The notes below the pieces were generated by a model. It did not search any database and was not told where the DNA came from. It saw nothing but the letters and a program-made list of their open reading frames with translations. A stretch of 64,000 nucleotides of DNA from Cyathus striatus (taxonomy: Eukaryota > Basidiomycota > Agaricomycetes > Agaricales > Nidulariaceae), in assembly GCA_025738555.1 (NCBI GenBank), contig JAOVFP010000001.1, positions 1,984,001-2,048,000 on the forward strand, in the 5' to 3' direction. The position numbers and the translations under genes were made by a program. Shown here in pieces: positions 3,163 to 42,287 of this stretch. The first letter of the stretch is position 1; every line of letters starts with the position of its first letter.

Positions 3163-3329
3163 TGTAAGCAGTGTTGGCGATATTAACAAGGGTACAACCC
3201 AATGGCGAGCTTGTATACATAGCCTTTATACAACTTGACAAGCACGCTATACACATGAAATTATTGTGCTTTAGAACGTCATATCGTCGTGATTATTGCA
3301 TAAGAAACTTATCTTGCAATTAAATCTAC

Positions 3330-4480: not shown

Positions 4481-4779
4481 GGTAGCTACGCAGCATGCAG
4501 ACATTGCACCAAGATCAAGAAGATATCTAATTGTGATGACTCAAGAATATAGTTGCGAAATTAGCAAACAGTATACATGTAGATCATGTAAATACTATAT
4601 GTCAATATCCGAAGCCCGTCGAGAATGCAGTCTGGATTTTGTCCATTGATCAGTATATACAAATATCTGTATGCGAATCTCCTCTCGTATTATTTGTATA
4701 GTATGGTATGGTATAGTATGTTATATTAATTCCAATAGTGCTGCTCATGGTCAAATATATAGGTGTATCTCCAAATGCT

Positions 4780-7775
4780 ACGCGTTACTTCCCCAAAAAT
4801 ACTCCAAGATCACGAGTTGGTACATTTTTCCTCTTATTAATTTCATATCTAAGCTTTCCTCTCCAAGGATGGACTGTGGCCTCATCCTCGTTCATTGTGT
4901 ACACCTGGAATTCTTGTCCAAATAAAGCGACATTTCCTGGATTCACTACTATGACACGTTGGATCATTCTATCCGGAGATACTATCCGTACAAATCTTGC
5001 GGGTATATCAATGCACCCTTCAGGGCCGGTAGGATCGGCATCTAAGTCAAGTCGGAAACACTTTGTGGTGTTCACCAACTCGACAAAGTTGCCAATTCGG
5101 TTTTCATAACGTCCATTTTCAAATCCTGTGTCGTCGGGTGTCGGAAAGGAGCGAGCAATAAAAGTACGTAGTTTTTTTCTTTTTAAATCCGATTTATATT
5201 CGACTAGCTGTGTGATCCAATGTTCTGTATTAAAATTGTTAGCGTTGACATATTGTCTATTGCTGTACAATTACACACCATTGAAACAATCTAATGAGTA
5301 GGATCCAGCATTGGCAGAAATGGTTGCAGTGCCTGCTGCAAACATACCCATTGACTCCGGAAGCAAAGCAGACGGTTGCAATGGAAGATGTGAAGGGTTG
5401 TTCTCGGGAACTATGAATGTAGCTGGTAAGTCTCGTGAGTTTGTCTAATGATCTGAAGAACTAACTGCGATGACGAAAAGATAACAATTCAAGATCTTCG
5501 ATATTGGAACTAGAACCTGGCTTCGTGTGGTGTGAGATGGTAATCAAATAATAATGTGATAAAGTTACCTGTGGAGTTTTTGAACTGGGATTCCATGCAG
5601 GCGTCTGTGATCCAATCCCATAATCGTGTTCCCAATGTGGTGTTGAACAAGGAGGTAACGGTTGTTCAGGAAGACTTCTGGAATCTGGGACATTTGTCGT
5701 CAAATTATTAAATCTGTAACGTATTATTAGATACTGGCAGAAGCATAATGTACTGTGTAAATACCCGGGGATGAATATATCCTTCAATGGCACACTCTCG
5801 CAGCGATTTGAAGTCATCAGATGCGTCTGTATCTCCACTACTGCGACGCCATTGAAATTTACATCTTGTAGTATTCCAAGCTCTCCTTTCAGAGGACCAG
5901 CTTTGATTATAACGTAACGCCTATATAAAGATTTGTAGCGATCGTTTCGCATGAGCCTGTCATCTAATGAAACGGGCTCAGTACAACTGCTGGATGAGCT
6001 TGCAGAAAATCTGCCGAAGTCGCTATCCTGCCACCTAAATGTCGTATTTCGATGAACTTCATCGCAGAAGTCTAAATTTGAAGATAGAACCTGTATGTGG
6101 TTACTCTACGTAATATTAGAATGTATATATAATGTTATTCCCCAAGTGAATATTACCTTCTTCAGTGGAAAAGTGACCATCATGACATTATCCTCTCCAA
6201 TCCTCCCATATGGCTCACTGTTAATGACCATTCCAACCGATCCTTTATGCTCGCCAGTGATCACTCGAACACCATCTCCGAGCTTAAAGCATTTCTGCAA
6301 CAGACTTAACGAGTATACGAATGCACCTGTATGTGAATTGGCAAGTTTTAACGTTGCACTATCTTCTTGGATGTCCTGAATGGAAGCGAGAGAGTATGTT
6401 CCATGATTTAGTGATACCTTTACCTGATCACCTATTCGTATACTTGACGCCAGTATTGCACGTCTCGTATGGTCCAGAATTTGAGCGGGCACATGCCTGC
6501 AGTTCTGGAAAGCTCTTAGCTCTGACATTGTAGGAATCGCTTCAACCTGGTAGAATTTTTCGATGTCGATTTTTCGTCATAGAATAAATCCTTCTGTCAT
6601 ATATAATGAACCGCGAAAACCATATCCAGCGATAACATTTTTATCGGAACCTTCGTATTGAACCTCAAATTTATCCGGACTTGTCTTTCTTGCGAGATCG
6701 GGGTTAAACGGATCACAGTGCGGGCGAGACTTTGAAGATCCTGGGGACCGCTTTCGTTTCAAGGATCTCTTGTAGATCACTCGTGGAAGATGAATAACGT
6801 CAATCCGCAGAGTGCGCTGGCATACATTCGTGATGAAGGCGAGGTCGTAACGGTATTTTCCTTTCAACCTTACCCAAGTGTGCTGAGAAGGTATGTACGT
6901 TGACCCGTTAACTTTGGTGACAGAAACCCACGCCTCGGTCGGCGCTGGGCGAATGTATTTGGAATACACGTCTTGATAAATAGAAGTGGCGGCCTGAATA
7001 TCGCTGATGTTACGAGCCTCGACATATACGTGACCTGGAATAACCGCTGATGCAAATGCACTGCGTATATGCTTCGAGCCAGCTTGATATGAGAGCGCGT
7101 GTACAATAAGTTCCTCTGTTCCTTCCTGTGAAATCATGTTACAGTTGTTTTCAACATAACAAGCTCGAATTCCACTCACCTTCACTGGAACATCAAATAA
7201 CGGCCAGTCTCCGTCGCGTATTCCCCGTGGCTAATAGAGTGCTTGCTCTTGGTAAGCTGTGAATTGGTTTCCTTTGGCGATTCGCTACTTCCTCCATTGT
7301 TCCCGTACTTATCGAGCAAGTATCCAATGAAACCATGGTTTGGCGCTGATTCAACAGCACATGTTAATGCCAGCTGGCTGATAGGGATATTATCTTCGTC
7401 GTCTGTGCCATCGATATCCTCGTCGTCGAAATGGTCGTCGATGAAGTTGTCTACACAATTAGCATAATATTGCCTCTTGAAGATCATAATACATACCGGC
7501 ATGGTCTGTGTCCGCTTCATCGTCGGTGGGCGACTCTGTCGATACCTCAGCTTCCAAATCTAAGAACGACTTCTCTTCATTAGCATCAGGTTCAATATCT
7601 TATACTCCCCAGCTCTTACCTCTACAAGCCGTCTCTTGGTTGTTTTCTTTTTCTTACCGCTCACACTAGGCGGTTGAGAGATAGGTATCTCATCATCAGG
7701 GTCGTTGTACCATGTAATGTCGTGTGCCTCCTTCAATGTGCCATTTTGATTTAAAGCGCAGTTTTCTTCACTCAT
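4780..7775 (-). pseudogene. Spt5-like NGN/KOW protein, left-arm copy (stop plus frameshift)
   Basis: This mirrors the right-arm gene at 38986-41982; the domains are described there. Relative to that copy it lacks one G in a G-run near 7230, which breaks the frame just before the NGN domain. It has one extra G near 4798, which changes the last residues from GSNA to GK. It shares the in-frame TGA between the NGN/KOW part and the second KOW. If the one-base differences are sequencing errors in homopolymers, only the shared stop remains. Start ATG is at 7775. Transcription runs toward the outer end of the palindrome, as in the other arm. Confidence 0.8.
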
Positions 7776-7887
7776 TGTATATACTATCCTAACTACACTG
7801 AATACTACTTTTCTAGAGTCGATGCGAATAGAGCGGAGGAAAAAATTAAAAAAGACGAGGTTCAATGAGTTAATCCAAAATCATCTT

Positions 7888-7899
7888 CTTGAGGGCAGG
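7888..7899 (+). repeat. CTTGAGGGCAGG motif upstream of the Spt5-like gene
   Basis: The 18 bases CATCTTCTTGAGGGCAGG (from 7882) also form one end of the 71 bp foldback at 13190-13260 (in reverse complement). Here the motif stands alone about 110 bp upstream of the Spt5-like start codon, followed by CATCACGTGACG. It may be a lone end of the same small element, or a shared regulatory word. The mirror copy lies at about 38863-38874. Confidence 0.5.
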
Positions 7900-8411
7900 T
7901 TGAAACATCACGTGACGACGTCTGAATTTCGACCGGCGTAAGCATTCTGTGATTTGGTTGTGATACTTACTCCATCTAATGAATTAGCTCGACGTTGTTC
8001 ATTTAGCCATGTGCAATAAGTGTGGTCATACTATATTCACTTCTGTCTAATAGATACATATGGTAATACTGTAGATAGATATATTTATGAAATTGACGTC
8101 GACTACAGTCTACGACGGCTTTTTGAGGCCTCGGCAATTGCCGTTATAATCCCCACGACCTCCAAGCATTCACCTAACGTCGCCCCTTGTAAACATTGCC
8201 GGTATTTATATCATGAACTCAGTAATTATATTGAAAACTATTAACTTTATCTAAGCTAATGGCGTTCGCTTTTAAATTGATATATTGGCGGAATACAATT
8301 CATTGTAATAGTATACCAGAATAAGCCGGCAAGCGGGCGGCAGTGCGGCATAGCCCAGGGACACGTGCATATGTGCGCTTACGGTGATACGAACGTTAAG
8401 TCCATTTCATA

Positions 8412-8910
8412 TCAACACTCCTCCTCACATGGAGTCTTGGGAGACAGAAATTCAAGGCCTAGGAATGCGCATAGTCGATTGAACTGTGGTCCGGGTAATG
8501 GTTTCGTAAAGATATCGGCGATGTTGTCTTTTGTAGAAATATAAGACAACTCGATGTTTCTATCTTGTAAGTTGTGATTGTTCGCGAAGAAAATGATATT
8601 ATGCTTCATGCGCACATGGAGTAATAGATCGTCGGATAATGTGGTAGCGGCTCGGTTATCGCATAGGATAGGGGTGGGTTTGGTGGTAGGCATATTTATG
8701 CTGTCAAATAAATGTCTGAGTCATATTCCTTCTTTGCACGCTTCGAATGCGGCCATATATTCAGCTTCACACGGAGACCCTGCGACTGCTTTTTGATTTT
8801 GGACCTCCAAGAGACCATACCAGAACCTAGTGTGAATCCATAACCACCAACGCTACGACGAGTATCGAGGAAGTTAGCCTTGGTTTTATGTCCAAGTTCT
8901 ATCCTCCACG
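8412..8910 (-). mobile_element. Ty1/copia RNase H fragment and LTR start, left arm
   Basis: Mirror of 37850-38351; see that entry for motifs. In this copy one A is missing in an A-run near 8800, so the frame breaks between the two halves of the RNase H domain. The same TGA interrupts the frame. The LTR side (TGTTGATATG) faces the outer end of the arm. Confidence 0.85.
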
Positions 8911-8914
8911 TCGG

Positions 8915-9480
8915 TAAAGAGATAAAGAGGAAAAGAAAAGTAGGGACGAGAGAGAAAAGGGGGAGAAAGCTGTGAGTTGAGGTGGGTGGTTGGGGGATGT
9001 GCGTTCTACACGAAGTAGACAGGTAGAGACGGGCGAAGAGAAGGGAGGGAGGGAAAGAGAGGGTGCATACCCTCATAACTTGAGGGAAAGGGCGAGGGGG
9101 GGAGAGGACACTTGACCTCGTTACCTGCAAGACGAGGGGAGGGGAGGGAAGGAAGGGATGACGAAGTGGTGCTCATCGTCGTGACATTATGGTCCCTGAA
9201 TCTACGCTCGTCACTTGCAAGGCGAGAGGTAGGGCGTTGGGTGGGGACCATGGGATGGCGTTAGTCTTTGTAGTGTTGCTGGCCAAATGCCGCTCGTCAC
9301 TTGAAAATTGGGGGGAAAGAGTTGAGGGGGAGGAGGGGAGGGAGGGCGATGGCGATGGTATGATGCTTGTTCCTTGCGAGAAGAGGGAGGGGAGGGGTTG
9401 GTCGAGGAACTATAGACGGGAGCGTGTGTACGAGTGGGGGATCGGGGAGGGGTCGGATTTGCGAGTGATGTCAGCAGCGT
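8915..9480 (+). repeat. Strand-skewed purine-rich block with about 90 bp units
   Basis: The plus strand is overwhelmingly A and G for more than 500 bases. Embedded in it are three related units beginning near 9113, 9205 and 9292, each starting with a form of CTCGT(C/T)AC(T/C)TGCAAG and followed by a G/A run. It sits directly against the truncated 5' side of the copia RNase H fragment. Open frames across it are low complexity and not believable genes. The mirror pyrimidine-rich block is at about 37280-37850. Confidence 0.7.
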
Positions 9481-10319
9481 AGAGCATTGGGAAAAGGGGA
9501 CAGGGAAGGGTGTACCATGCGTGCGTCGTCAGCACGGACCGAGGTTAAGGAGGGATCTGAATGGGCTCGAGTAATGAGTAAAACGAAGGCAGGGAGGACG
9601 TACGATGAATAGGTAAGGTCCTTTGCCCCAAAATTCAGCGATCGTCGTCGTATGAACGTCTTCGTTGCCCCGCTATCCCCCTACTAGCCTTACAAACGCG
9701 GCGCCTCCCTCGGACTATACCCCACATCATATCCCAACCCACACTTCCAGGCCTTGAAAACGCACACTTCTGCGGTGGTGGGTGGAAAACCAACTCGGTA
9801 TGAGCGCCGAATTTGAATGCTGATACTTGAGGAGATGTTGCTGGTCAAGGAGCGCCACTGCTTCCTGCTGAGGTAGAAGGACCGAATGCGGGGGTTGGGT
9901 GAAATGGTGGGCATGTTGTATGAAGAAACATGGACTCGTTGTCGGTGGGCCATGGCTGGAGGCAGGATGGTGGGGTTGTGGACGTACGGGTGGGATATGA
10001 AACCAGGGCGCCTTCTCCAAACAGCAGCAGCAACGCGGTCCCTCCCTTCTTCACGAATCCAGCTATCGTTGTCGTTGTTGAGCGGAATGATGAGCGGAAG
10101 GTGGTATGTGTAGTTAGAGGCGGGAATGATTGGGTAGAGGCACGAATGCGTGTGCTGGAGTTCGAAATAAGCTTTCGATGGATTCAAAAGCTACTATTCA
10201 TCTTCCTGTATTCTGTAACGAGCCGATACCTATTGCTACCAAGTTTTTGCAATCGTTGCTGAGGTGAGTACATATGATAGAGCTATACTGGCGAGTTACC
10301 TCAATATTATGATAGGAGC
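9481..10319. other. Arm sequence without a supported gene
   Basis: Several overlapping frames are open on both strands because of biased composition, but none has a motif and a clear start. Possible upstream exons of the small gene at 10320 could lie here; I could not define them. Confidence 0.35.
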
Positions 10320-10757
10320 ATGCCGAGAGTTGTTGAACCTACCTTCATCGCCTATGATCTCCAGGCTACATTTTATGAGGTACGTTCGTCTATATTCGTT
10401 ACGTTTCTCCCTCCAACGGTAGACAAACGTTTGTAGGTAGGCAATCGGGTGATGGTCCGCTGGGGAGGATGTTGGAGGGCCGCAGAATTGATACGCGTCG
10501 AACATATGGTGCACTGGAGAGGATGTTGGAGGGATGCAGAGTCAGTACGTGTCGAACAGCGCAGGAAGACAAAGCGAAAGAACGCAAAGAAGGGTAACGG
10601 TCGCAAAACCGAAATGAAAGAGGTAAGTCGTCGGTATTTCGCAAGCCGTTGAACACTTACTTTTATTCGTAATAGAAAGTAAGTTTCTACGTCCGTACAG
10701 GCAAGACGTCCAGGAGTTGTCGCTGTAAAGTGGTACAACATCCGATACCCCATGTAA
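10320..10757 (+). CDS. Small three-exon protein, family shared with 53.4 kb gene (left-arm copy)
   Basis: Exon 1 is 10320-10379 and encodes MPRVVEPTFIAYDLQATFYE, ending at a GTACGT donor. Exon 2 is 10437-10622, starting VGNRVMVRWGG after a TTTGTAG acceptor and ending in a strongly basic stretch (RRKTKRKNAKKG). Exon 3 is 10701-10757 after a TACAG acceptor, encoding ARRPGVVAVKWYNIRYPM and a stop. All junctions keep frame, giving about 100 residues. The minus-strand gene at 53419-53783 has the same layout: an MPK/R start, an ATYE-like end of exon 1, GNRVM at the start of exon 2 and a final IRYP. Function is unknown. The basic segment could bind nucleic acid, but that is inference. An upstream first exon cannot be excluded. 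Confidence 0.55.
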
Positions 10758-11010
10758 GCTTTTCTTGAGTTGCGTTACCTTATACGTGCTTATATCCCCA
10801 GTGCAAGAAAAAAGAGAAATTAAGAGGTGTAATTAGTTGACCAGTACATTGTAGAAGTCTTGATTGAGGCTAGTAGGTATATTATGTAGGGCGAATGCTG
10901 TGTAGGAATGTGTGAGTTTTTTGCTCTCTTCGGCTTAATTTGATAAACTTACAAACTAATCAAATTGACGCTACCACCCCCGCTATTCTATGTGAACATC
11001 CCTATCGAGC

Positions 11011-11345
11011 AATGAGAACGCGACGGATGGTATGGGTCGGTGAACGAGAAGTTGATTTGGGAAAATGCACCAATGATCCTGACATCGTGTACGTCCTCGA
11101 ATAAAAATGGCGCTATCGCCAAAGCACCCAATAGTATAATTAATAAAGAGTAAGTCCCCTCTGTCCTAAACGGGCATGAATAAATGATTTGACCTGTATG
11201 TTACTGTAACGCGACAGATAAGTCAGTAGACGAATCTGATTCGGGAAAACGTACCAATGATTCTGACACCGTGTACGTCGTCGAATCGTCGTCAAATAAC
11301 AACAACGCTACTACCAACGCACCCAATATCACTAATAAAGAGTAA
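11011..11345 (+). repeat. Tandem duplication (about 183 bp) of an exon-like segment
   Basis: The block 11011-11158 is repeated at 11194-11345, with shared words such as ACCAATGAT(C/T)CTGACA and AATAAAGAGTAAGTC. The second copy reads as an exon after a GACAG acceptor: DESDSGKRTNDSDTVYVVES, then an Asn/Thr-rich stretch, ending at AAAGAG before a GTAAGT donor. The first copy has a stop in that frame just after VYVLE. In the right arm the second copy lacks one G and would shift frame. It may be a decayed gene of Ser/Thr/Asn-rich type; I do not recognise it. Confidence 0.5.
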
Positions 11346-11896
11346 GTCATTCGAATACGGCAGTTCTCGAAATAGAAATAGACATACCTTATGTCTCTGC
11401 ACACGCTCTCTTTTATACGAGCACCATTAAACACGACATCAGCGCTCAGCAGTGAGTCTCTTACTCGTATTCATAATAGACTGTCAATTCTACGAATGGG
11501 AAAGACATCCGTTAACTGATGCGTTATATCTATCTTACAGGCTACGTACACATCTTATGCTTCTCTGTCATCGTCGTACCAGGATTTCCCACTGTTCTTC
11601 TCTTTGGTAATGATAGAGGTACAGGTATATAAACCATGTAAAACATTTCTTGAATATAGTTCAATACGACAAATAGGCATTGTGTTACCGAAGGGTTCTG
11701 TGACTTGTAAGCAGAAAAGATTATGGATAGATATCTTGCATTTCAGTGAGATACTCATGCACAGCAGATTCCTTCGGCTTATTTCCGTTTCGTCCGTCTA
11801 TTGCAAGTTGTCTAAAGCTTTCGGACGAGAATCTGGAGTCGGGGATGGTCGTATTAGGATTTGGCACTAGCTTTCCATCATTCGTCGTTTGAACAA

Positions 11897-11940
11897 TACG
11901 TCGGCGTCAGACTGCACCCGATCCTCACGGGAAGTCATCT
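11897..11940 (+). repeat. Single transposon end related to the 42.6 kb element
   Basis: GGCGTCAGACTGCACCCGAT followed by CCTCACGGGAAGTCATC closely matches one terminus of the 425 bp TIR element at 42602-43026. No partner end was found within the arm, so this looks like a relic. The mirror copy is at about 34823-34866. Confidence 0.6.
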
Positions 11941-13189
11941 AGTACCTAAATTTTAATTGAACACGATCGGTTTATTAATAACTTTTGACCTATTGTTAGT
12001 CCAAGCTATTATTATATTTCGCACTTATGAGGAATGACTCTGAGTAACTCCGAGTGCGAAACCCACTTGGATAGACTTGAACGCAATCCAAGACATCTTT
12101 CGGAAGCAGGTGTTTACTTGCATCTACGCGCTGATTTGGAATCACATGCGCGAATTGATGGTGCGATTGAGCATGATAGTTGGATTACATAGGACACAAG
12201 TGATTTCATCATGGCCAACTTAAATACGAGTGAAAACATATCGAGACGGCCCACAGATGTAACACGTACGGAAATTACGATACTGCTAAGCAGGTGTAAA
12301 GGTGGTGGTTAGGTTGGCGCCTAAACAAAGAAATATAAATAGAGCGAGTTGCAAGCGAGTTAAAGGAGTTGGGATCGTAGATTTTGGAAGGGAAATGGGA
12401 AAGTGTGAAACATAGATCATAGAATGAATTGAAAGAAATTTTGAAGAGTAAAACTGAGAATGGGAGACATGGAGCGGTGACACGACCTTTGGTAAAGCAA
12501 ATTGCGCATTCAGTGGGTCTTGGTAGTGCGCGATACCGACGATCTTGAGTTGCTGTTGAGTAATTGCGACGTTTTGAACGGTGTATGTGTGTCGGCATTG
12601 GATGGAACCTGCGGGAAGGGTCAAGTGAGAGGGGGAGAGCAAACGCGAATAGCGCGCTCTACTATAAGCAATGAAGACGCTAAATTAATCAAAAATCAGT
12701 TACAAAACGCATTCGTCGAGTAGAAAAAACAGTACTCACTATTATGTACCCTTCCGCCCTGCCCCGCATTTGTCGTTGCTAATTAAGTGCAAGCTGGTGT
12801 ACAAGCAGGGGGTTATTAATGTTACACGGGCAGCGTTGGTAGAGATAATGCAAGACTAACGGCTTGTTCGATCGTCAGAAGATCGAATGGGGCGGCAAGG
12901 TCAACATAGAGCCTGGTTGTCCGATATTTAATGCCACCTTAATCTTATAGTATATCTTGCTGCAGACTTTTACACAAGAAAAATAATATATTGAAAACTT
13001 ATCGAGGGACATTTATTAATTCCATTGCTACCTTACTATACCATTCAAGCCCAAGTACATCAACAGAATGTTTGCAAGCCGCATATTTGCACGACTGAAC
13101 CTACATGGCGCATGAAGTGCGAGAGGCTGGTGGGAGAAAGGAAAGGACATACGCGGCGAGTCCTGGACGCGATTAGGCAATTTGATTTT

Positions 13190-13260
13190 CTTGAGGGCAG
13201 GTGGCTGGTAACGGCACCGGCCGGTAACGTAACGCGTTACACGTTACGCCTGCCCTCAAG
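13190..13260 (+). repeat. 71 bp foldback
   Basis: It starts CTTGAGGGCAGG and ends with its reverse complement CCTGCCCTCAAG. The centre carries further dyads built from GTAACG/CGTTAC words around CCGGCCGG, so the single strand could fold into a compound hairpin. The mirror copy is 33503-33573. It is too small to code. It could be a minimal MITE or a regulatory/recombination palindrome. Confidence 0.75.
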
Positions 13261-13814
13261 AAGATGGGACCCACTTTTCAACGCATGTGTAGGCGTGCGT
13301 CCACTCTCTTTCTAGTTGCACACTGTTGTGCATGTGCAAGCCAGAAATGGCACGAACATTCACCCATCAACGAGAACGCCGATATGACTGAGAACGCGAA
13401 TACTTTGGAATGTAAATTGAAGAATCATGTAGAACAGTGTAGATATATTTACTATGATAAAAGAACAACGAAATTTCCTGTATGTACAATAAGTAGTGAA
13501 TCGATTACCCCTTTCCCCATCCTAATTGTGTGATTCTTAAGTCATAAGTTACCTGCGCACTCGGGTAAGTACCTATTAATACCGGTACTACTACAACACA
13601 CATACGCTGTAGATTATAAGTAGTAGTAGGATGCGATACTACTTTACGGTACCGTTGGTCTGAGGATATACACCATAATTTTGAAGCTCTACAAGTACGC
13701 TAAACTTGGGTGGTAAAGCGATGAGAGTCGAAGGAGAGGTAAAAGGCACTGGCGGGAATATTGATCGACAGGAGAGAACTGTACCATTACGGCCAAGTTG
13801 AACCTAGTATTCAA

Positions 13815-14130
13815 GCCCAGTCAAAAGTCGCGAAAGTCTGGTCCGGTCAGATCTGGCATTTCCGGAGAGGTCCGAGCAGGGCTGGGAACAACTGATTTCA
13901 CACACTCAATCATATCTAGTTGCGACTTTATTGTGTTCACACCACTGACTTGCGTGCACAACTTACCCCACCCGACCTTCTGTCCTTGTCTCTAGTCTAC
14001 TTCATCAGCTATGTCGCCCCTACTCGCTCGATCGGCACGATGCCGCGACTATATTTGTCCCGACCAAACAACACGACTACTGTCAGTGCGGCACCAACTC
14101 TACCTCTCTTGTCGTGACTTTTGACTGGGC
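13815..14130 (+). mobile_element. 316 bp MITE-like element, left arm
   Basis: The ends are GCCCAGTCAAAAGTCGCGA and, inverted, GCCCAGTCAAAAGTCACGA (18 of 19 match). Nothing inside is recognisably coding. No clear target-site duplication was seen: the left flank ends in TTCAA and the right flank begins CTGAGGCC, a run of GAGGCC repeats. The mirror copy is 32633-32948. A single similar end (GAAGCCCAGTGAAAAGTCCG) occurs near 60470. Confidence 0.65.
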
Positions 14131-14648
14131 CTGAGGCCTGAGGCCGAGGCCGAGGCCTTGAGGGCTCGTTGAACAAGTTGTCGGGATAACCTGTATGTCC
14201 CTTTTTCATATACTGTAATCGTTTCTCAGTCTACTAATCTTCAGCATAGACAGCCATTTCGTAGTACATACCAAGTGTTGCCGTATCGGTTGGGATTTGA
14301 TAGGATCAAGAAAAAATGTATGTTCCATTTCTGACTGTCTTTTCGACACACTAACCCTTCCTCTGCATGTTTCTTCACTCTATTTCGAGCTCTATCCACA
14401 GAATATGTTTCTGCTATGCCGTTTAACGCCTCTGCTCCTTACACGCTGTGGAGCTTCTCTATATGAACACTCCACCTCAATCCCTTTATACCCATCCTGC
14501 CACGTCGTCACTGTGCCTCATATATCACTCCAAGACGTGATCTACTTCACCTTCAATTCCATTCGTGCTCGTTATTGATCGCTTTCAGTCACCTAAGCTT
14601 AATCAATTACGTTGTGCTTGCACCACGAGTAGATGTTTTGTAGTCTCT

Positions 14649-16070
14649 CCTTCCTTTACCACTGTCATTACCTCAGGAACAGGTACTGGTAACTGGTTGG
14701 CTTGACTAGTATTATTTTATGCTATATTCTCCTTAGATATCTCTAGATATGTGTCGAGTACTTTTAGATAATATTATATCATGCAATATACTGTAATAAA
14801 TCATAATATATCACTTTATCTGCTCAGAAATCCTTTGATAGGTACGTATGTTGTCAGAAAGCCTCAGACAGCCCACGCTCTGTTATACTGTTACGTTACA
14901 TTTCCGCAACCCTTGATTCTATTACGATGGGCTCAGATGATGCTTATGCCTCCCTAGATTAAAATCTGACTTGATCTGAAATAGACATAACATTAGTTTA
15001 CGATGTACCTCACTAAGCCTCGCTGTAGTCCGATTTAAATCGTTGTATTCTGTATAACCGATTTAAGTCTCACTCACAATCTTGACAATATCACTTTAAG
15101 TTTTAATTTACTCGTTTTACGCTCTCGCCGACTTTCGTAACGCTGGAACTTCGTCTCGAAGTCCAATCCCACTCCTTACGTTCTACACTCTCAATTCCCT
15201 ATTCTAATTTCGGACCTGCTGAAATGATAAGTGGACTATTATTATCTTGTCTAATCAATTGAGATCACACCAAAGACTGTATGAGCGCTCGCCAAAGCGC
15301 TGGCACCACCGAGGAGAATCCTATTGCACTAGTCATCGACGCCACGAGCGATAGAAAAGGTACAGCAGGAAAATAGCATGCAAATGAAGAGTAAAAATGT
15401 AGCTACTCGCAAAAGGCCATACACGAAACAGTGAACAAAAAACTGCAAAAAAGAAATAGGAAACAACGGATGAAGAAAAAATAGGTATGGGCAATAGGTA
15501 TGAGCGGGTACATGAAACGAAACGAAATGATTATGCGAGGAGTGGGAGGTGGGTAACGCGATAAACTGAGCGTCCTCAATCTACCTGGCTGGAGCATGAG
15601 GATGAGGGATGTTAATTAAGAGTCAAACCGAAAGGAGACTTGAAACGCACCTGGTGCAGGAGAATGACAGATGCGGATTATCAAATCCCTGCAGAACCTG
15701 GTCCCACGGATTTAGGAGGCTAGACTACGAGACGACTGAATTGAATGATGCAGGTCTAGGTCAGCACTACCTCACAGAATTGAGGCAGAACGATGCTGAC
15801 GAAGACGGTCTGGGTTCAGTCTGCAACAAGAGTTCATGAAGTTCGCGTGACTTCATGACGAATAACGCTGCTCCTCTACGATTGGCCCAGTTCAAGTCTA
15901 CGACTTGAACTGCAATGTATTAATAGACTCCGCTATTATTAGAATACTGAATATGACGGCTTTCAAGCTTAAAGTTATAGCTGGATCATTCATTATTTCT
16001 GGCACCGTTAATCCCGATACATCAAAGTGATTGTTACATGCACGTAAGATTAAGTACAACCGTTTCAGTC
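14649..16070. other. Start of the unique spacer, no gene seen
   Basis: This is AT-rich intergenic DNA. A perfect 10 bp stem with a three-base loop (AGTTCAAGTC, TAC, GACTTGAACT) lies at 15889-15911, about 160 bp beyond the stop of the convergent minus-strand gene. It could act in 3' processing or be incidental. Confidence 0.45.
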
Positions 16071-27862: not shown

Positions 27863-28099
27863 AACGTTGGTGTTATCTGAAGACAAAGACATGCCTCATG
27901 GAGTACCCCAAAAGACTATCCACGTTCAAGTGCTCTAGAGTCGTCGCACTAGTAGGTGTGTTTAATGTGGAATGAGGCACGATATCGAAGGGCTTTTATG
28001 GCGAAGGAGACAGCTGTACTCTGCGTTTCTGTTTTCCCATCTTCATCCTAGTAAACCTTGAATATGGTTCGTATTTGCCTCCTAATGATACGATTTGTT

Positions 28100-28639: not shown

Positions 28640-29140
28640 TTAGTGTACTTTGTAATTCTCGACGTCGGGATTGATCTCTATTTTTGTTCATTTGAGCTGG
28701 TTAAGCGCATCACAGAGATTGAGGATCAATATAATACGTTTAAAAATAGAGATTGACTTAAAGTCATAGAATTGAGTATTAAACTATGAGAAATGATTAA
28801 TAAGGCTTGAAAAGATTTTTGACAATCTGCATCACCGAAGTTCCTCGCCCGCTCATGCCATAACGTTACCGCACCTGATTCACGCAACGGATAAACGTGT
28901 AGTAACATGTTTTACTTCCGGGGTTACTGAAAGAGAAACGACGAAGCACGAGGTGGAAATTATTCGTAAACTCATGGTCTAAAATCTCTGGTATTCGGGG
29001 TCTTTCTTGGCTGCTTCGTGATTTAAATTATTCTACTTGAGAAATATTTTAGTAATCGATTCAGGTGCAACAATCGGCGATCTTTCGCAGTTTTCTAGTA
29101 TATATGTGTGTGTGGTTTGGAAGCACGTATCTGCACAATT
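28640..29140. other. Intergenic upstream of WD40 paralog 3
   Basis: No gene is seen. It should hold the promoter for the gene starting at 29141. Confidence 0.35.
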
Positions 29141-32113: not shown

Positions 32114-32632
32114 AGAGACTACAAAACATCTACTCGTGATGCAAGCACAACGTAATTGATTAAGCTTAGGTGACTGAAAGCGATCAATAACGAGCACGAA
32201 TGGAATTGAAGGTGAAGTAGATCACGTCTTGGAGTGATATATGAGGCACAGTGACGACGTGGCAGGATGGGTATAAAGGGATTGAGGTGGAGTGTTCATA
32301 TAGAGAAGCTCCACAGCGTGTAAGGAGCAGAGGCGTTAAACGGCATAGCAGAAACATATTCTGTGGATAGAGCTCGAAATAGAGTGAAGAAACATGCAGA
32401 GGAAGGGTTAGTGTGTCGAAAAGACAGTCAGAAATGGAACATACATTTTTTTCTTGATCCTATCAAATCCCAACCGATACGGCAACACTTGGTATGTACT
32501 ACGAAATGGCTGTCTATGCTGAAGATTAGTAGACTGAGAAACGATTACAGTATATGAAAAAGGGACATACAGGTTATCCCGACAACTTGTTCAACGAGCC
32601 CTCAAGGCCTCGGCCTCGGCCTCAGGCCTCAG

Positions 32633-32948
32633 GCCCAGTCAAAAGTCACGACAAGAGAGGTAGAGTTGGTGCCGCACTGACAGTAGTCGTGTTGTTTGGT
32701 CGGGACAAATATAGTCGCGGCATCGTGCCGATCGAGCGAGTAGGGGCGACATAGCTGATGAAGTAGACTAGAGACAAGGACAGAAGGTCGGGTGGGGTAA
32801 GTTGTGCACGCAAGTCAGTGGTGTGAACACAATAAAGTCGCAACTAGATATGATTGAGTGTGTGAAATCAGTTGTTCCCAGCCCTGCTCGGACCTCTCCG
32901 GAAATGCCAGATCTGACCGGACCAGACTTTCGCGACTTTTGACTGGGC
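32633..32948 (-). mobile_element. 316 bp MITE-like element, right arm
   Basis: Mirror of 13815-14130, with the same GCCCAGTCAAAAGTC ends. Confidence 0.65.
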
Positions 32949-33502
32949 TTGAATACTAGGTTCAACTTGGCCGTAATGGTACAGTTCTCTCCTGTCGATC
33001 AATATTCCCGCCAGTGCCTTTTACCTCTCCTTCGACTCTCATCGCTTTACCACCCAAGTTTAGCGTACTTGTAGAGCTTCAAAATTATGGTGTATATCCT
33101 CAGACCAACGGTACCGTAAAGTAGTATCGCATCCTACTACTACTTATAATCTACAGCGTATGTGTGTTGTAGTAGTACCGGTATTAATAGGTACTTACCC
33201 GAGTGCGCAGGTAACTTATGACTTAAGAATCACACAATTAGGATGGGGAAAGGGGTAATCGATTCACTACTTATTGTACATACAGGAAATTTCGTTGTTC
33301 TTTTATCATAGTAAATATATCTACACTGTTCTACATGATTCTTCAATTTACATTCCAAAGTATTCGCGTTCTCAGTCATATCGGCGTTCTCGTTGATGGG
33401 TGAATGTTCGTGCCATTTCTGGCTTGCACATGCACAACAGTGTGCAACTAGAAAGAGAGTGGACGCACGCCTACACATGCGTTGAAAAGTGGGTCCCATC
33501 TT

Positions 33503-33573
33503 CTTGAGGGCAGGCGTAACGTGTAACGCGTTACGTTACCGGCCGGTGCCGTTACCAGCCACCTGCCCTCAAG
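33503..33573 (-). repeat. 71 bp foldback, right arm
   Basis: Mirror of 13190-13260, with identical CTTGAGGGCAGG ends. Confidence 0.75.
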
Positions 33574-36006
33574 AAAATCAAATTGCCTAATCGCGTCCAG
33601 GACTCGCCGCGTATGTCCTTTCCTTTCTCCCACCAGCCTCTCGCACTTCATGCGCCATGTAGGTTCAGTCGTGCAAATATGCGGCTTGCAAACATTCTGT
33701 TGATGTACTTGGGCTTGAATGGTATAGTAAGGTAGCAATGGAATTAATAAATGTCCCTCGATAAGTTTTCAATATATTATTTTTCTTGTGTAAAAGTCTG
33801 CAGCAAGATATACTATAAGATTAAGGTGGCATTAAATATCGGACAACCAGGCTCTATGTTGACCTTGCCGCCCCATTCGATCTTCTGACGATCGAACAAG
33901 CCGTTAGTCTTGCATTATCTCTACCAACGCTGCCCGTGTAACATTAATAACCCCCTGCTTGTACACCAGCTTGCACTTAATTAGCAACGACAAATGCGGG
34001 GCAGGGCGGAAGGGTACATAATAGTGAGTACTGTTTTTTCTACTCGACGAATGCGTTTTGTAACTGATTTTTGATTAATTTAGCGTCTTCATTGCTTATA
34101 GTAGAGCGCGCTATTCGCGTTTGCTCTCCCCCTCTCACTTGACCCTTCCCGCAGGTTCCATCCAATGCCGACACACATACACCGTTCAAAACGTCGCAAT
34201 TACTCAACAGCAACTCAAGATCGTCGGTATCGCGCACTACCAAGACCCACTGAATGCGCAATTTGCTTTACCAAAGGTCGTGTCACCGCTCCATGTCTCC
34301 CATTCTCAGTTTTACTCTTCAAAATTTCTTTCAATTCATTCTATGATCTATGTTTCACACTTTCCCATTTCCCTTCCAAAATCTACGATCCCAACTCCTT
34401 TAACTCGCTTGCAACTCGCTCTATTTATATTTCTTTGTTTAGGCGCCAACCTAACCACCACCTTTACACCTGCTTAGCAGTATCGTAATTTCCCGTACGT
34501 GTTACATCTGTGGGCCGTCTCGATATGTTTTCACTCGTATTTAAGTTGGCCATGATGAAATCACTTGTGTCCTATGTAATCCAACTATCATGCTCAATCG
34601 CACCATCAATTCGCGCATGTGATTCCAAATCAGCGCGTAGATGCAAGTAAACACCTGCTTCCGAAAGATGTCTTGGATTGCGTTCAAGTCTATCCAAGTG
34701 GGTTTCGCACTCGGAGTTACTCAGAGTCATTCCTCATAAGTGCGAAATATAATAATAGCTTGGACTAACAATAGGTCAAAAGTTATTAATAAACCGATCG
34801 TGTTCAATTAAAATTTAGGTACTAGATGACTTCCCGTGAGGGATCGGGTGCAGTCTGACGCCGACGTATTGTTCAAACGACGAATGATGGAAAGCTAGTG
34901 CCAAATCCTAATACGACCATCCCCGACTCCAGATTCTCGTCCGAAAGCTTTAGACAACTTGCAATAGACGGACGAAACGGAAATAAGCCGAAGGAATCTG
35001 CTGTGCATGAGTATCTCACTGAAATGCAAGATATCTATCCATAATCTTTTCTGCTTACAAGTCACAGAACCCTTCGGTAACACAATGCCTATTTGTCGTA
35101 TTGAACTATATTCAAGAAATGTTTTACATGGTTTATATACCTGTACCTCTATCATTACCAAAGAGAAGAACAGTGGGAAATCCTGGTACGACGATGACAG
35201 AGAAGCATAAGATGTGTACGTAGCCTGTAAGATAGATATAACGCATCAGTTAACGGATGTCTTTCCCATTCGTAGAATTGACAGTCTATTATGAATACGA
35301 GTAAGAGACTCACTGCTGAGCGCTGATGTCGTGTTTAATGGTGCTCGTATAAAAGAGAGCGTGTGCAGAGACATAAGGTATGTCTATTTCTATTTCGAGA
35401 ACTGCCGTATTCGAATGACTTACTCTTTATTAGTGATATTGGGTGCGTTGGTAGTAGCGTTGTTGTTATTTGACGACGATTCGACGACGTACACGGTGTC
35501 AGAATCATTGGTACGTTTTCCGAATCAGATTCGTCTACTGACTTATCTGTCGCGTTACAGTAACATACAGGTCAAATCATTTATTCATGCCCGTTTAGGA
35601 CAGAGGGGACTTACTCTTTATTAATTATACTATTGGGTGCTTTGGCGATAGCGCCATTTTTATTCGAGGACGTACACGATGTCAGGATCATTGGTGCATT
35701 TTCCCAAATCAACTTCTCGTTCACCGACCCATACCATCCGTCGCGTTCTCATTGCTCGATAGGGATGTTCACATAGAATAGCGGGGGTGGTAGCGTCAAT
35801 TTGATTAGTTTGTAAGTTTATCAAATTAAGCCGAAGAGAGCAAAAAACTCACACATTCCTACACAGCATTCGCCCTACATAATATACCTACTAGCCTCAA
35901 TCAAGACTTCTACAATGTACTGGTCAACTAATTACACCTCTTAATTTCTCTTTTTTCTTGCACTGGGGATATAAGCACGTATAAGGTAACGCAACTCAAG
36001 AAAAGC
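33574..36006. other. Right-arm interior, mostly non-genic
   Basis: Mirror of 10758-13189. It contains the single transposon end (about 34823-34866) and the tandem exon-like duplication (about 35420-35755). In this copy the second duplicate lacks one G of a three-G run near 35520, breaking the frame open in the left arm. Confidence 0.4.
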
Positions 36007-36446
36007 TTACATGGGGTATCGGATGTTGTACCACTTTACAGCGCGACAACTCCTGGACGTCTTGCCTGTACGGACGTAGAAACTTACTTTCTATTACGAA
36101 TAAAAGTAAGTGTTCAACGGCTTGCGAAATACCGACGACTTACCTCTTTCATTTCGGTTTTGCGACCGTTACCCTTCTTTGCGTTCTTTCGCTTTGTCTT
36201 CCTGCGCTGTTCGACACGTACTGACTCTGCATCCCTCCAACATCCTCTCCAGTGCACCATATGTTCGACGCGTATCAATTCTGCGGCCCTCCAACATCCT
36301 CCCCAGCGGACCATCACCCGATTGCCTACCTACAAACGTTTGTCTACCGTTGGAGGGAGAAACGTAACGAATATAGACGAACGTACCTCATAAAATGTAG
36401 CCTGGAGATCATAGGCGATGAAGGTAGGTTCAACAACTCTCGGCAT
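36007..36446 (-). pseudogene. Small three-exon protein, right-arm copy (frameshifted)
   Basis: Mirror of 10320-10757. Exons 1 and 2 are unchanged. In exon 3 there are two extra bases (GTCGCGCTG instead of GTCGCTG), so the reading frame goes VVAL-stop and loses the conserved KWYNIRYPM end. Because the difference is not a homopolymer run, it is more likely real than the other arm differences. Confidence 0.55.
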
Positions 36447-37279
36447 GCTCCTATCATAATATTGAGGTAACTCGCCAGTATAGCTCTATCATATGTACTC
36501 ACCTCAGCAACGATTGCAAAAACTTGGTAGCAATAGGTATCGGCTCGTTACAGAATACAGGAAGATGAATAGTAGCTTTTGAATCCATCGAAAGCTTATT
36601 TCGAACTCCAGCACACGCATTCGTGCCTCTACCCAATCATTCCCGCCTCTAACTACACATACCACCTTCCGCTCATCATTCCGCTCAACAACGACAACGA
36701 TAGCTGGATTCGTGAAGAAGGGAGGGACCGCGTTGCTGCTGCTGTTTGGAGAAGGCGCCCTGGTTTCATATCCCACCCGTACGTCCACAACCCCACCATC
36801 CTGCCTCCAGCCATGGCCCACCGACAACGAGTCCATGTTTCTTCATACAACATGCCCACCATTTCACCCAACCCCGCATTCGGTCCTTCTACCTCAGCAG
36901 GAAGCAGTGGCGCTCCTTGACCAGCAACATCTCCTCAAGTATCAGCATTCAAATTCGGCGCTCATACCGAGTTGGTTTTCCACCCACCACCGCAGAAGTG
37001 TGCGTTTTCAAGGCCTGGAAGTGTGGGTTGGGATATGATGTGGGGTATAGTCCGAGGGAGGCGCCGCGTTTGTAAGGCTAGTAGGGGGATAGCGGGGCAA
37101 CGAAGACGTTCATACGACGACGATCGCTGAATTTTGGGGCAAAGGACCTTACCTATTCATCGTACGTCCTCCCTGCCTTCGTTTTACTCATTACTCGAGC
37201 CCATTCAGATCCCTCCTTAACCTCGGTCCGTGCTGACGACGCATGGTACACCCTTCCCTGTCCCCTTTTCCCAATGCTC
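36447..37279. other. Right-arm sequence without a supported gene
   Basis: Mirror of 9481-10319; a one-base difference in a C-run near 36875 reshuffles the open frames, which argues against any of them being real genes. Confidence 0.4.
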
Positions 37280-37849
37280 TACGCTGCTGACATCACTCGC
37301 AAATCCGACCCCTCCCCGATCCCCCACTCGTACACACGCTCCCGTCTATAGTTCCTCGACCAACCCCTCCCCTCCCTCTTCTCGCAAGGAACAAGCATCA
37401 TACCATCGCCATCGCCCTCCCCTCCCCTCCTCCCCCTCAACTCTTTCCCCCCAATTTTCAAGTGACGAGCGGCATTTGGCCAGCAACACTACAAAGACTA
37501 ACGCCATCCCATGGTCCCCACCCAACGCCCTACCTCTCGCCTTGCAAGTGACGAGCGTAGATTCAGGGACCATAATGTCACGACGATGAGCACCACTTCG
37601 TCATCCCTTCCTTCCCTCCCCTCCCCTCGTCTTGCAGGTAACGAGGTCAAGTGTCCTCTCCCCCCCTCGCCCTTTCCCTCAAGTTATGAGGGTATGCACC
37701 CTCTCTTTCCCTCCCTCCCTTCTCTTCGCCCGTCTCTACCTGTCTACTTCGTGTAGAACGCACATCCCCCAACCACCCACCTCAACTCACAGCTTTCTCC
37801 CCCTTTTCTCTCTCGTCCCTACTTTTCTTTTCCTCTTTATCTCTTTACC
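37280..37849 (-). repeat. Strand-skewed pyrimidine-rich block, right arm
   Basis: Mirror of the purine-rich block at 8915-9480. Its runs of C and T extend up to the start of the copia RNase H fragment. Confidence 0.7.
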
Positions 37850-38351
37850 GACGTGGAGGATAGAACTTGGACATAAAACCAAGGCTAACTTCCTCGATAC
37901 TCGTCGTAGCGTTGGTGGTTATGGATTCACACTAGGTTCTGGTATGGTCTCTTGGAGGTCCAAAAATCAAAAAGCAGTCGCAGGGTCTCCGTGTGAAGCT
38001 GAATATATGGCCGCATTCGAAGCGTGCAAAGAAGGAATATGACTCAGACATTTATTTGACAGCATAAATATGCCTACCACCAAACCCACCCCTATCCTAT
38101 GCGATAACCGAGCCGCTACCACATTATCCGACGATCTATTACTCCATGTGCGCATGAAGCATAATATCATTTTCTTCGCGAACAATCACAACTTACAAGA
38201 TAGAAACATCGAGTTGTCTTATATTTCTACAAAAGACAACATCGCCGATATCTTTACGAAACCATTACCCGGACCACAGTTCAATCGACTATGCGCATTC
38301 CTAGGCCTTGAATTTCTGTCTCCCAAGACTCCATGTGAGGAGGAGTGTTGA
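37850..38351 (+). mobile_element. Ty1/copia RNase H fragment and LTR start
   Basis: The frame contains the copia RNase H domain: DTRRSVGGYGFTLGSGMVSW, then SPCEAEYMAAFEACKEG, then ILCDNRAATTLSDDLLLH and the closing KDNIADIFTKPLPGPQF. A TGA at 38040-38042 stands where the family normally has Trp (EGI-stop-LRHLFDS), after which the frame continues, so it is a single nonsense change. Downstream lies a purine-rich primer tract (GTGAGGAGGAG) and the LTR start TGTTGATATG at about 38346. The 5' part of the element is missing and replaced by the skewed block. The same tract follows the copia fragment at 54.5 kb, so both belong to one lineage. Confidence 0.85.
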
Positions 38352-38985
38352 TATGAAATGGACTTAACGTTCGTATCACCGTAAGCGCACATATGCACGT
38401 GTCCCTGGGCTATGCCGCACTGCCGCCCGCTTGCCGGCTTATTCTGGTATACTATTACAATGAATTGTATTCCGCCAATATATCAATTTAAAAGCGAACG
38501 CCATTAGCTTAGATAAAGTTAATAGTTTTCAATATAATTACTGAGTTCATGATATAAATACCGGCAATGTTTACAAGGGCGACGTTAGGTGAATGCTTGG
38601 AGGTCGTGGGGATTATAACGGCAATTGCCGAGGCCTCAAAAAGCCGTCGTAGACTGTAGTCGACGTCAATTTCATAAATATATCTATCTACAGTATTACC
38701 ATATGTATCTATTAGACAGAAGTGAATATAGTATGACCACACTTATTGCACATGGCTAAATGAACAACGTCGAGCTAATTCATTAGATGGAGTAAGTATC
38801 ACAACCAAATCACAGAATGCTTACGCCGGTCGAAATTCGACGTCGTCACGTGATGTTTCAACCTGCCCTCAAGAAGATGATTTTGGATTAACTCATTGAA
38901 CCTCGTCTTTTTTAATTTTTTCCTCCGCTCTATTCGCATCGACTCTAGAAAAGTAGTATTCAGTGTAGTTAGGATAGTATATACA
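38352..38985. promoter_or_regulatory. Partial LTR and upstream region of the Spt5-like gene
   Basis: The first 150 bases or so are probably LTR sequence, but its end is not clear. Between 38863 and 38985 lie CCTGCCCTCAAGAAGATG and a CACGTGAT word, just upstream of the start codon at 38986. These may be promoter elements, or ends of a small transposon caught near the promoter. Confidence 0.4.
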
Positions 38986-41982
38986 ATGAGTGAAGAAAAC
39001 TGCGCTTTAAATCAAAATGGCACATTGAAGGAGGCACACGACATTACATGGTACAACGACCCTGATGATGAGATACCTATCTCTCAACCGCCTAGTGTGA
39101 GCGGTAAGAAAAAGAAAACAACCAAGAGACGGCTTGTAGAGGTAAGAGCTGGGGAGTATAAGATATTGAACCTGATGCTAATGAAGAGAAGTCGTTCTTA
39201 GATTTGGAAGCTGAGGTATCGACAGAGTCGCCCACCGACGATGAAGCGGACACAGACCATGCCGGTATGTATTATGATCTTCAAGAGGCAATATTATGCT
39301 AATTGTGTAGACAACTTCATCGACGACCATTTCGACGACGAGGATATCGATGGCACAGACGACGAAGATAATATCCCTATCAGCCAGCTGGCATTAACAT
39401 GTGCTGTTGAATCAGCGCCAAACCATGGTTTCATTGGATACTTGCTCGATAAGTACGGGAACAATGGAGGAAGTAGCGAATCGCCAAAGGAAACCAATTC
39501 ACAGCTTACCAAGAGCAAGCACTCTATTAGCCACGGGGGAATACGCGACGGAGACTGGCCGTTATTTGATGTTCCAGTGAAGGTGAGTGGAATTCGAGCT
39601 TGTTATGTTGAAAACAACTGTAACATGATTTCACAGGAAGGAACAGAGGAACTTATTGTACACGCGCTCTCATATCAAGCTGGCTCGAAGCATATACGCA
39701 GTGCATTTGCATCAGCGGTTATTCCAGGTCACGTATATGTCGAGGCTCGTAACATCAGCGATATTCAGGCCGCCACTTCTATTTATCAAGACGTGTATTC
39801 CAAATACATTCGCCCAGCGCCGACCGAGGCGTGGGTTTCTGTCACCAAAGTTAACGGGTCAACGTACATACCTTCTCAGCACACTTGGGTAAGGTTGAAA
39901 GGAAAATACCGTTACGACCTCGCCTTCATCACGAATGTATGCCAGCGCACTCTGCGGATTGACGTTATTCATCTTCCACGAGTGATCTACAAGAGATCCT
40001 TGAAACGAAAGCGGTCCCCAGGATCTTCAAAGTCTCGCCCGCACTGTGATCCGTTTAACCCCGATCTCGCAAGAAAGACAAGTCCGGATAAATTTGAGGT
40101 TCAATACGAAGGTTCCGATAAAAATGTTATCGCTGGATATGGTTTTCGCGGTTCATTATATATGACAGAAGGATTTATTCTATGACGAAAAATCGACATC
40201 GAAAAATTCTACCAGGTTGAAGCGATTCCTACAATGTCAGAGCTAAGAGCTTTCCAGAACTGCAGGCATGTGCCCGCTCAAATTCTGGACCATACGAGAC
40301 GTGCAATACTGGCGTCAAGTATACGAATAGGTGATCAGGTAAAGGTATCACTAAATCATGGAACATACTCTCTCGCTTCCATTCAGGACATCCAAGAAGA
40401 TAGTGCAACGTTAAAACTTGCCAATTCACATACAGGTGCATTCGTATACTCGTTAAGTCTGTTGCAGAAATGCTTTAAGCTCGGAGATGGTGTTCGAGTG
40501 ATCACTGGCGAGCATAAAGGATCGGTTGGAATGGTCATTAACAGTGAGCCATATGGGAGGATTGGAGAGGATAATGTCATGATGGTCACTTTTCCACTGA
40601 AGAAGGTAATATTCACTTGGGGAATAACATTATATATACATTCTAATATTACGTAGAGTAACCACATACAGGTTCTATCTTCAAATTTAGACTTCTGCGA
40701 TGAAGTTCATCGAAATACGACATTTAGGTGGCAGGATAGCGACTTCGGCAGATTTTCTGCAAGCTCATCCAGCAGTTGTACTGAGCCCGTTTCATTAGAT
40801 GACAGGCTCATGCGAAACGATCGCTACAAATCTTTATATAGGCGTTACGTTATAATCAAAGCTGGTCCTCTGAAAGGAGAGCTTGGAATACTACAAGATG
40901 TAAATTTCAATGGCGTCGCAGTAGTGGAGATACAGACGCATCTGATGACTTCAAATCGCTGCGAGAGTGTGCCATTGAAGGATATATTCATCCCCGGGTA
41001 TTTACACAGTACATTATGCTTCTGCCAGTATCTAATAATACGTTACAGATTTAATAATTTGACGACAAATGTCCCAGATTCCAGAAGTCTTCCTGAACAA
41101 CCGTTACCTCCTTGTTCAACACCACATTGGGAACACGATTATGGGATTGGATCACAGACGCCTGCATGGAATCCCAGTTCAAAAACTCCACAGGTAACTT
41201 TATCACATTATTATTTGATTACCATCTCACACCACACGAAGCCAGGTTCTAGTTCCAATATCGAAGATCTTGAATTGTTATCTTTTCGTCATCGCAGTTA
41301 GTTCTTCAGATCATTAGACAAACTCACGAGACTTACCAGCTACATTCATAGTTCCGAGAACAACCCTTCACATCTTCCATTGCAACCGTCTGCTTTGCTT
41401 CCGGAGTCAATGGGTATGTTTGCAGCAGGCACTGCAACCATTTCTGCCAATGCTGGATCCTACTCATTAGATTGTTTCAATGGTGTGTAATTGTACAGCA
41501 ATAGACAATATGTCAACGCTAACAATTTTAATACAGAACATTGGATCACACAGCTAGTCGAATATAAATCGGATTTAAAAAGAAAAAAACTACGTACTTT
41601 TATTGCTCGCTCCTTTCCGACACCCGACGACACAGGATTTGAAAATGGACGTTATGAAAACCGAATTGGCAACTTTGTCGAGTTGGTGAACACCACAAAG
41701 TGTTTCCGACTTGACTTAGATGCCGATCCTACCGGCCCTGAAGGGTGCATTGATATACCCGCAAGATTTGTACGGATAGTATCTCCGGATAGAATGATCC
41801 AACGTGTCATAGTAGTGAATCCAGGAAATGTCGCTTTATTTGGACAAGAATTCCAGGTGTACACAATGAACGAGGATGAGGCCACAGTCCATCCTTGGAG
41901 AGGAAAGCTTAGATATGAAATTAATAAGAGGAAAAATGTACCAACTCGTGATCTTGGAGTATTTTTGGGAAGTAACGCGTAG
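38986..41982 (+). CDS. Spt5-like NGN/KOW protein, right-arm copy with one in-frame stop
   Basis: ATG 38986 (MSEENCALNQNG) opens an acidic N-terminus as in Spt5 elongation factors. Clear introns are 39265-39310, 39583-39636, 40606-40671 and 40998-41048. An NGN-like domain starts near 39637 (LIVHALSYQAGSKHIRSAF, PGHVYVEARNISDIQAA) and runs into KOW1 (WVRLKGKYRYDLAFITNV). KOW2 is LGDGVRVITGEHKGSVGMVI; KOW3 is RRYVIIKAGPLKGELGILQD. The last exons add a domain with HWITQLVEYKSDL, ending GSNA. Spt5 pairs with Spt4 on RNA polymerase II, but whether this paralog does is unknown. TGA at 40183-40185 interrupts GFIL-stop-RKIDIEKFYQVEAIPT with the frame open on both sides; no plausible intron removes it. 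The join near 39141 is unresolved. It may be a pseudogene. Confidence 0.8.
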
Positions 41983-42287
41983 CATTTGGAGATACACCTA
42001 TATATTTGACCATGAGCAGCACTATTGGAATTAATATAACATACTATACCATACCATACTATACAAATAATACGAGAGGAGATTCGCATACAGATATTTG
42101 TATATACTGATCAATGGACAAAATCCAGACTGCATTCTCGACGGGCTTCGGATATTGACATATAGTATTTACATGATCTACATGTATACTGTTTGCTAAT
42201 TTCGCAACTATATTCTTGAGTCATCACAATTAGATATCTTCTTGATCTTGGTGCAATGTCTGCATGCTGCGTAGCTACCATTCCTGT

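Follow-up and report, generated by a model that had tools for sequence, protein, structure and literature searches.

Results

The palindrome and its spacer

The window analysed here is a stretch of 64,000 nucleotides of the Cyathus striatus genome (contig JAOVFP010000001.1, positions 1,984,001 to 2,048,000). A BLASTN comparison of the window with itself revealed one inverted pair, 4474-14648 and 42286-32114, which aligned over 10,183 columns with 99.79% identity and was the sole pair of this size. Chance cannot produce an inverted repeat of such length and identity. The palindrome, its spacer and its borders comprise the following features (W denotes the copy in the window, A and B two of the further copies described below):

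1646-1813, plus strand: remnant of an older outer arm; pairs with 42280-42453 at 86% (92% of the bases aligned without gaps)
2984-4564, no strand: left-side insertion that copy A and the right arms of both A and B lack; the left arm of B has most of it
4481-14648, plus strand: left palindrome arm (self-BLASTN, arm alignment), holding the SPT5-like gene on the minus strand
5461-7559, minus strand: SPT5-like gene of the left arm (ORFs; identity of the arm to the right arm)
14649-32113 (17,465 bp), no strand: spacer, with WD40-type ORFs and ORFs without Pfam match
32114-42279, minus strand: right palindrome arm, the inverted copy (self-BLASTN, arm alignment)
39202-41301, plus strand: SPT5-like gene of the right arm with NGN and KOW regions (three stop-to-stop frames; Pfam matches under the cut-off)
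42280-42453, minus strand: partner remnant belonging to the older outer right arm; pairs with 1646-1813

Direct alignment of the trimmed arms (4481-14648 and 32114-42279) showed a single substitution and 14 indel events over 10,158 aligned bases, in agreement with the arm coordinates and the "about a dozen differences" given by an earlier reading made from the letters alone (hereafter the sequence-only reading). The substitution (C/T at 14623) lies 25 bp from the inner edge, and 11 of the 14 indel events adjoin an identical base and are thus homopolymer-like. These differences resemble consensus errors made separately on two identical arms, in which case neither arm would be a duplicate introduced by the assembler. 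About 84 bp of the left-side insertion are present in the right arm, and they mark the outer edge of the palindrome.

The spacer is common to copies A and B, as seen by alignment, and to two further copies, C and D, as seen with two probes. WD40 genes had been read in it before, and Pfam scans did detect WD40-type matches in five spacer ORFs (20165-29458), two of which (at 20165 and 29099) were above the Pfam WD40 cut-off. The ORFs at 20165 and 29099 are alike by eye, which suggests duplication of a WD40 gene within the cargo. A search with the spacer ORF 16524-16976 revealed no homologues at E 0.001, and the Rfam (gathering threshold) and tRNA scans gave no match.

Element ends and transposase

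Alignment of copies W, A and B stopped sharply at common points, which are the sequence CACAACGGGC and its inverse (the right end of B deviates at one base). The same three bases flank both ends in each copy, namely TTA in W, AGA in A and ATA in B. Copy W has the ends CACAACGGGC...GCCCGTTGTG within a TTA/TTA target duplication; it begins 1,181 bases left of the window start and occupies window positions 1-56002. The sequence-only reading had not recognised this enclosing element. The palindrome edges at 4481 and 42279 were also considered as transposon ends and rejected, since no matching triplets flank them and the element ends common to W, A and B are found 5.7 kb and 13.7 kb beyond them. 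The frame of the palindrome is made up as follows:

C1:1982820 to window position 56002 (57,183 bp), plus strand: giant CACTA/EnSpm-type element, copy W (ends, target duplication, tnp2)
43436-47418, plus strand: tnp2 transposase region, adjoining the right arm, with Transposase_21 at 44358-45539 and DUF4218 at 45986-46576
47489-52871, no strand: stretch without counterpart in A and B, probably nested insertions with inverted repeats of their own
56003-56005, no strand: right copy of the 3-bp target duplication, TTA (flank comparison)

Three traits of CACTA/EnSpm elements were found: 5'-CAC..GTG-3' ends (CACAACGGGC and GCCCGTTGTG in W, small variants in the other copies), a 3-bp target duplication in six of six copies with both ends, and a tnp2-type DDE transposase (Transposase_21, E 6.7e-17, 61.8 bits against a cut-off of 28.6). 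The sections of PMC12730594 used here give CAC..GTG ends with 3-bp duplications as consistent with EnSpm, and describe PlavakaA/B with either TGT..ACA ends and 2-bp duplications or CATCA..TGATG ends and 2-3-bp duplications. The present ends and 3-bp duplications do not conform to PlavakaA/B. The DUF4218 match is just under the cut-off, and the other four scanned frames of the tnp2 region were without Pfam match. In W, A and B the tnp2 frames, read without introns, carry in-frame stops at different places; judged by these stops, movement of the three copies may be confined to the past or to mobilisation in trans.

Smaller inverted repeats within 47489-52871 (49632-49999/50287-50651, 97.8%; 50671-50917/52626-52871, 94.7%) are probably nested short transposons. 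The ORF 54054-54500 showed one weak Pfam match, under the cut-off; by eye it resembles the end of a Copia-type reverse transcriptase. Outside the element, a pyrimidine-rich tandem array with a 17-bp unit occupies 60839-61102.

Copies of the element across the genome

Searches were run against the window's own assembly (107.45 Mb, 24 contigs). A 1.5-kb arm probe revealed more plus/minus pairs, 30-61 kb apart and each 90-94% identical to the window, at C1:1.1 Mb, C1:6.06 Mb, C9:1.42 Mb, C9:1.66 Mb and C7:0.63 Mb. As the searches scored the best candidates, 40 of 67 for this probe and 40 of 346 for a second arm probe, the counts are lower bounds. Probes of 400 bp from the element ends matched at least 16 left ends and at least nine right ends. 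Correctly oriented left and right ends form six pairs, which enclose 57,183, 71,499, 78,584, 64,951, 101,449 and 69,019 bp. Matching 3-bp duplications flank all six (TTA, AGA, ATA, TTA, TGG and CCA), that of D being read by eye at a left end that varies.

Copies W (with 50 kb beside the window), A (80 kb, C1:1.08-1.16 Mb) and B (90 kb, C1:6.035-6.125 Mb) were compared at length, and C, D and E were surveyed with probes and short pieces. Both arm probes found paired arms in opposite orientation inside each of the six both-ended copies. BLAST gave arms of 16.98 kb at 99.82% for copy A and of 16.78 kb at 99.76% for copy B, gaps counted. The arms are not complete in every copy: a probe from the SPT5-like gene was paired in five of the six, split on one side in A and D, and had one match in C.

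Unpaired ends are kept as fragments (right ends at C19:2.00, C6:5.89 and C1:2.44 Mb; left ends at C6:4.07 and C9:2.25 Mb), and seven left-end matches reached only 67-68%. The region C6:5891528-5949715 is a ruined relative that has a right end without a paired left end; a partial spacer probe is doubled in it around a centre of ~0.9 kb, which makes a tighter palindrome. A second inverted pair, C7:4438823-4440183 and C7:4467640-4469000, is identical at 1,361 of 1,361 bases, has a tnp2 match between its arms and is 80% identical to the arm core over about 360 bp. This pair is perhaps a second palindromic CACTA lineage.

Arms within and between copies

MAFFT alignments of the two arms of each copy showed one substitution in 10,158 bases for W, six in 16,955 for A and 12 in 16,748 for B. 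BLAST counted four and nine mismatches for A and B where MAFFT counted six and 12, and five of the 12 in B fall in the first 76 columns. In an alignment of the arms of all six copies, within-copy substitutions amounted to 0/4,491 (W), 4/4,488 (A), 6/4,488 (B), 2/4,486 (C), 0/1,363 (D) and 13/1,187 (E). Over a 1.5-kb core the arms of the same copy were 98.9-100% identical by substitution, whereas arms of different copies differed by 3.1-9.3%. A tree of the twelve arms placed the two arms of each copy as sisters in six of six cases, with support of 0.97-1.0. The arms of every copy are thus closer to each other than to those of other copies, as is characteristic of gene-converting palindromes. 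Homogenisation is not constant, since the core arms of E differ by 1.1%.

Over 4.5 kb of aligned arm, W is 12.3-14.7% divergent from A, B and C, whereas local alignments of W with A and B are mostly 90-97% identical along the arm, with differences of about 5-9%. The high divergence of W in the 4.5-kb alignment probably comes from a stretch that is not homologous.

Probable traces of arm-to-arm copying

In copy E, a stretch of 339 bp with 100% identity crosses the left end, and 285 bp of it are host flank. The same stretch lies inverted inside the copy, on C9 near 1645.5 kb, joined to the right outer arm without visible microhomology. Since host flank from its own site now lies within copy E, this copying event at least followed insertion there. 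The presence of a palindrome in every both-ended copy found would also be expected if the arms were made identical during transposition, for instance through a hairpin or replicative intermediate, and not in place; given the host flank inside E, we regard this as quite unlikely. The first spacer probe is doubled in E, and the arms would span about 26.9 kb around a centre of less than 5.0 kb if they are continuous between the probes.

Two further traces were observed. The right arm of W runs through ~84 bp of the left-side insertion and then continues as right outer arm, and about 1.15 kb present in B are missing there; the arm edge marked in the sequence-only reading is probably the end of a copying tract. 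In A and B the arms take in part of the spacer, but at opposite ends of it. The traces in E, W and A/B would all be explained if repair synthesis copied the other arm and the ends were then joined, a pathway that we infer.

Outside the homogenised tract, the left and right arms of A are 95.1-95.5% identical, compared with 98.0-98.4% for the left arms of A and B. Likewise, in the outer bin the two arms of W are 92.1% identical over 165 bases, compared with 95.5% for the left arms of W and A. This reversed order implies that both arms predate the parting of W, A and B and that arm-to-arm copying maintained the identity within copies. Near-identical arms within each copy would also arise if the palindrome had formed separately at each locus, through a recent inverted duplication that followed insertion. 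However, sequence content and order agree between the arms of W, A and B (C, D and E being compared by probes), and the outer arm remnants of these three copies show greater similarity from copy to copy than between the two sides of one copy, which renders a separate origin in each copy very improbable. Arm-to-arm gene conversion, one of the processes proposed from the sequence alone, is therefore supported by the six-copy comparison, with sister arms in all six copies and, in the copies aligned at length, the order reversed outside the tract. The palindrome had also been called young; this holds for the identity of the arms, but the palindrome itself is, by its outer parts, older than the divergence of the copies.

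The long arms and their nearly all homopolymer-like indel differences would suit an assembly artefact, in which two haplotypes or chimeric reads were joined head to head. A haplotype join had been the main alternative in the sequence-only reading; it fails on the same architecture at six loci with transposon ends and matching 3-bp duplications. Arms that differ by 3-9% between loci, a 17.5-kb spacer that is no read hairpin and, in E, the copying of 285 bp of host flank to a single internal site likewise speak against any such artefact, which we consider extremely unlikely.

Spacer orientation

The assembled orientation of the spacer relative to the element ends agrees in W and A and is opposite in B, C and D (two probes), i.e. 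in three of the five scorable copies. Copy E and the C6:5.89 Mb fragment contain the first spacer probe in both orientations, the fragment with only part of it and E without the second probe. D is the sister of W in the arm tree, yet its spacer has the opposite orientation; by our own parsimony count on this tree, at least two spacer flips are needed, taking the orientations as assembled. Opposite orientations could also result from mis-phasing by the assembler through arms of 10-17 kb. The flipping of the spacer envisaged in the sequence-only reading is suggested by the assembled orientations. One distant spacer match (C10:3302723) was assignable to no element.

A programmed inversion of the cargo by a dedicated recombinase, acting as a switch for the cargo genes, would produce opposite spacers in B, C and D as against W and A, but is hardly credible, as no recombinase domain besides tnp2 was found among the scanned selection of stop-to-stop frames and the inner arm borders differ in W, A and B, where a site-specific switch would have fixed sites.

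The SPT5-like gene and the second arm

A PDB sequence search with the protein of the SPT5-like gene of copy A matched SPT5 chains (best E 1.4e-14), and a homologue search found three proteins, all from Cyathus striatus, with 83% identity for the best. Compared with A and B, the main tnp2 frame and one SPT5-like frame (40186-40653) showed an excess of changes at third codon positions. Such an excess would be a mark of past selection on the protein; on its own the test is not clean, as eight stop-to-stop frames passed it, two of them antisense to the SPT5-like frame.

Parts of the SPT5-like sequence were found at 25 or more distant loci (25 of 26 matches used, the remaining one being an extra piece of the same locus). 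A tnp2 match lies within 30 kb at 17 of the 25, at a distance of 8-26 kb and in every case in the geometry of the left arm, while eight have none; with tnp2 evenly spread, about 3.7% of random points would be expected to have such a neighbour. The SPT5-like gene would thus seem to be a regular accessory of this CACTA group. The arm core was found at a minimum of 24 distant loci, after setting aside the C7:4.44 Mb pair, the C6:5.95 Mb fragment and 20 further matches that were secondary pieces of loci already counted. Fifteen have tnp2 within 60 kb (about 7% expected), 13 of these in left-arm geometry and two in another, and nine are without it. Five of the seven distant left ends have one arm-core match each close by and two have none; among the matches listed, no inverted partner arm was found at these ends.

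Distant kin are thus mostly single-armed, with tnp2 in left-arm geometry. The left module hence seems to be the native one, and the right arm probably arose as its inverted duplicate. The exception is the C7:4.44 Mb inverted pair.

Discussion

The palindrome very probably belongs to the interior of a giant cut-and-paste transposon of CACTA/EnSpm type (57-101 kb), in which its arms copy from each other. We infer the following course of events. An ancestor would have duplicated its left-hand module, with the SPT5-like gene, in inverted orientation across the cargo and next to the transposase gene, and transposition would then have spread the whole unit. In each resident copy the two arms may repair from each other. 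Non-crossover copying would keep them nearly identical, tracts running past the end of homology and closed by end joining would change arm length, and crossovers would invert the spacer, which is the presumed cause of the opposite orientations.

A possible, though rather doubtful, extension is that the palindrome serves a function within the element, as an inbuilt template for repair by which the SPT5-like gene and the flanking module stay intact between moves, with spacer isomers still flipping in living nuclei. If this were true, the tnp2-bearing locus at C7:4.44 Mb would be a second use of the same trick. Any benefit of the palindrome to the element is a candidate only.

Several known systems resemble the transposon-borne palindrome in part. 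In plastid inverted repeats, the single-copy part flips and the arms expand and contract; unlike these, the palindrome described here is nuclear, dispersed and mobile. Long near-perfect inverted repeats that are actively kept alike are also found in C. elegans, but the text of PMC1803023 drawn on here describes no mobile element with them. Nearest in behaviour are the palindromes of sex chromosomes, with near-identical arms kept by conversion and rare inversions (human Y P6, PMC3723533; willow, PMC7023750). In the parts of these two papers used, they are apparently not transposon-borne, whereas here the palindrome is part of a transposon, with replicate loci in one nuclear genome.

Among mobile elements, CACTA/EnSpm elements are alike in their CAC..GTG ends, 3-bp duplications and Transposase_21, together with the DUF4218 match just under the cut-off. 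They differ in size, the present element measuring 57-101 kb while PMC6431247, in the sections used, names EnSpm families of 16-20 kb in Chondrus as significantly enlarged; an internal homogenised palindrome goes unmentioned in the sections used of PMC12730594 and PMC6431247. Nearest in architecture is Teratorn, described in the relevant portions of PMC5601938 and PMC6431247 as a piggyBac-herpesvirus fusion of medaka, which is likewise giant and has a transposase and long inverted repeats, and whose subtypes differ by an 80-kb inversion. Teratorn belongs to another transposase superfamily and carries herpesvirus genes, whereas no viral hallmark genes (replication or capsid) were found among the Pfam-scanned selection of stop-to-stop frames. 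Starships are likewise giant cargo-bearing mobile elements of fungi and, according to the part of PMC13066641 used, reported from the basidiomycete Tremella too. They carry a tyrosine recombinase captain, whereas this element has a tnp2 transposase and CACTA ends, and no such captain was found among the selected ORFs scanned by Pfam. Among the best-matching open-access titles and openings of abstracts, none describes a gene-converting palindrome inside a CACTA or fungal transposon, and no fitting report links SPT5 with transposons.

Sex chromosomes provide the best-known large gene-converting palindromes. In the present case, at least six dispersed versions of one palindrome share a single nuclear genome, 3-9% diverged and each with unique host flanks. 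By comparing these copies, one can measure the direction and length of tracts, the growth of the arms, the inversion of the spacer and how old the homogenisation is. It is also evident from them that a CACTA element may attain about 100 kb and contain a palindrome.
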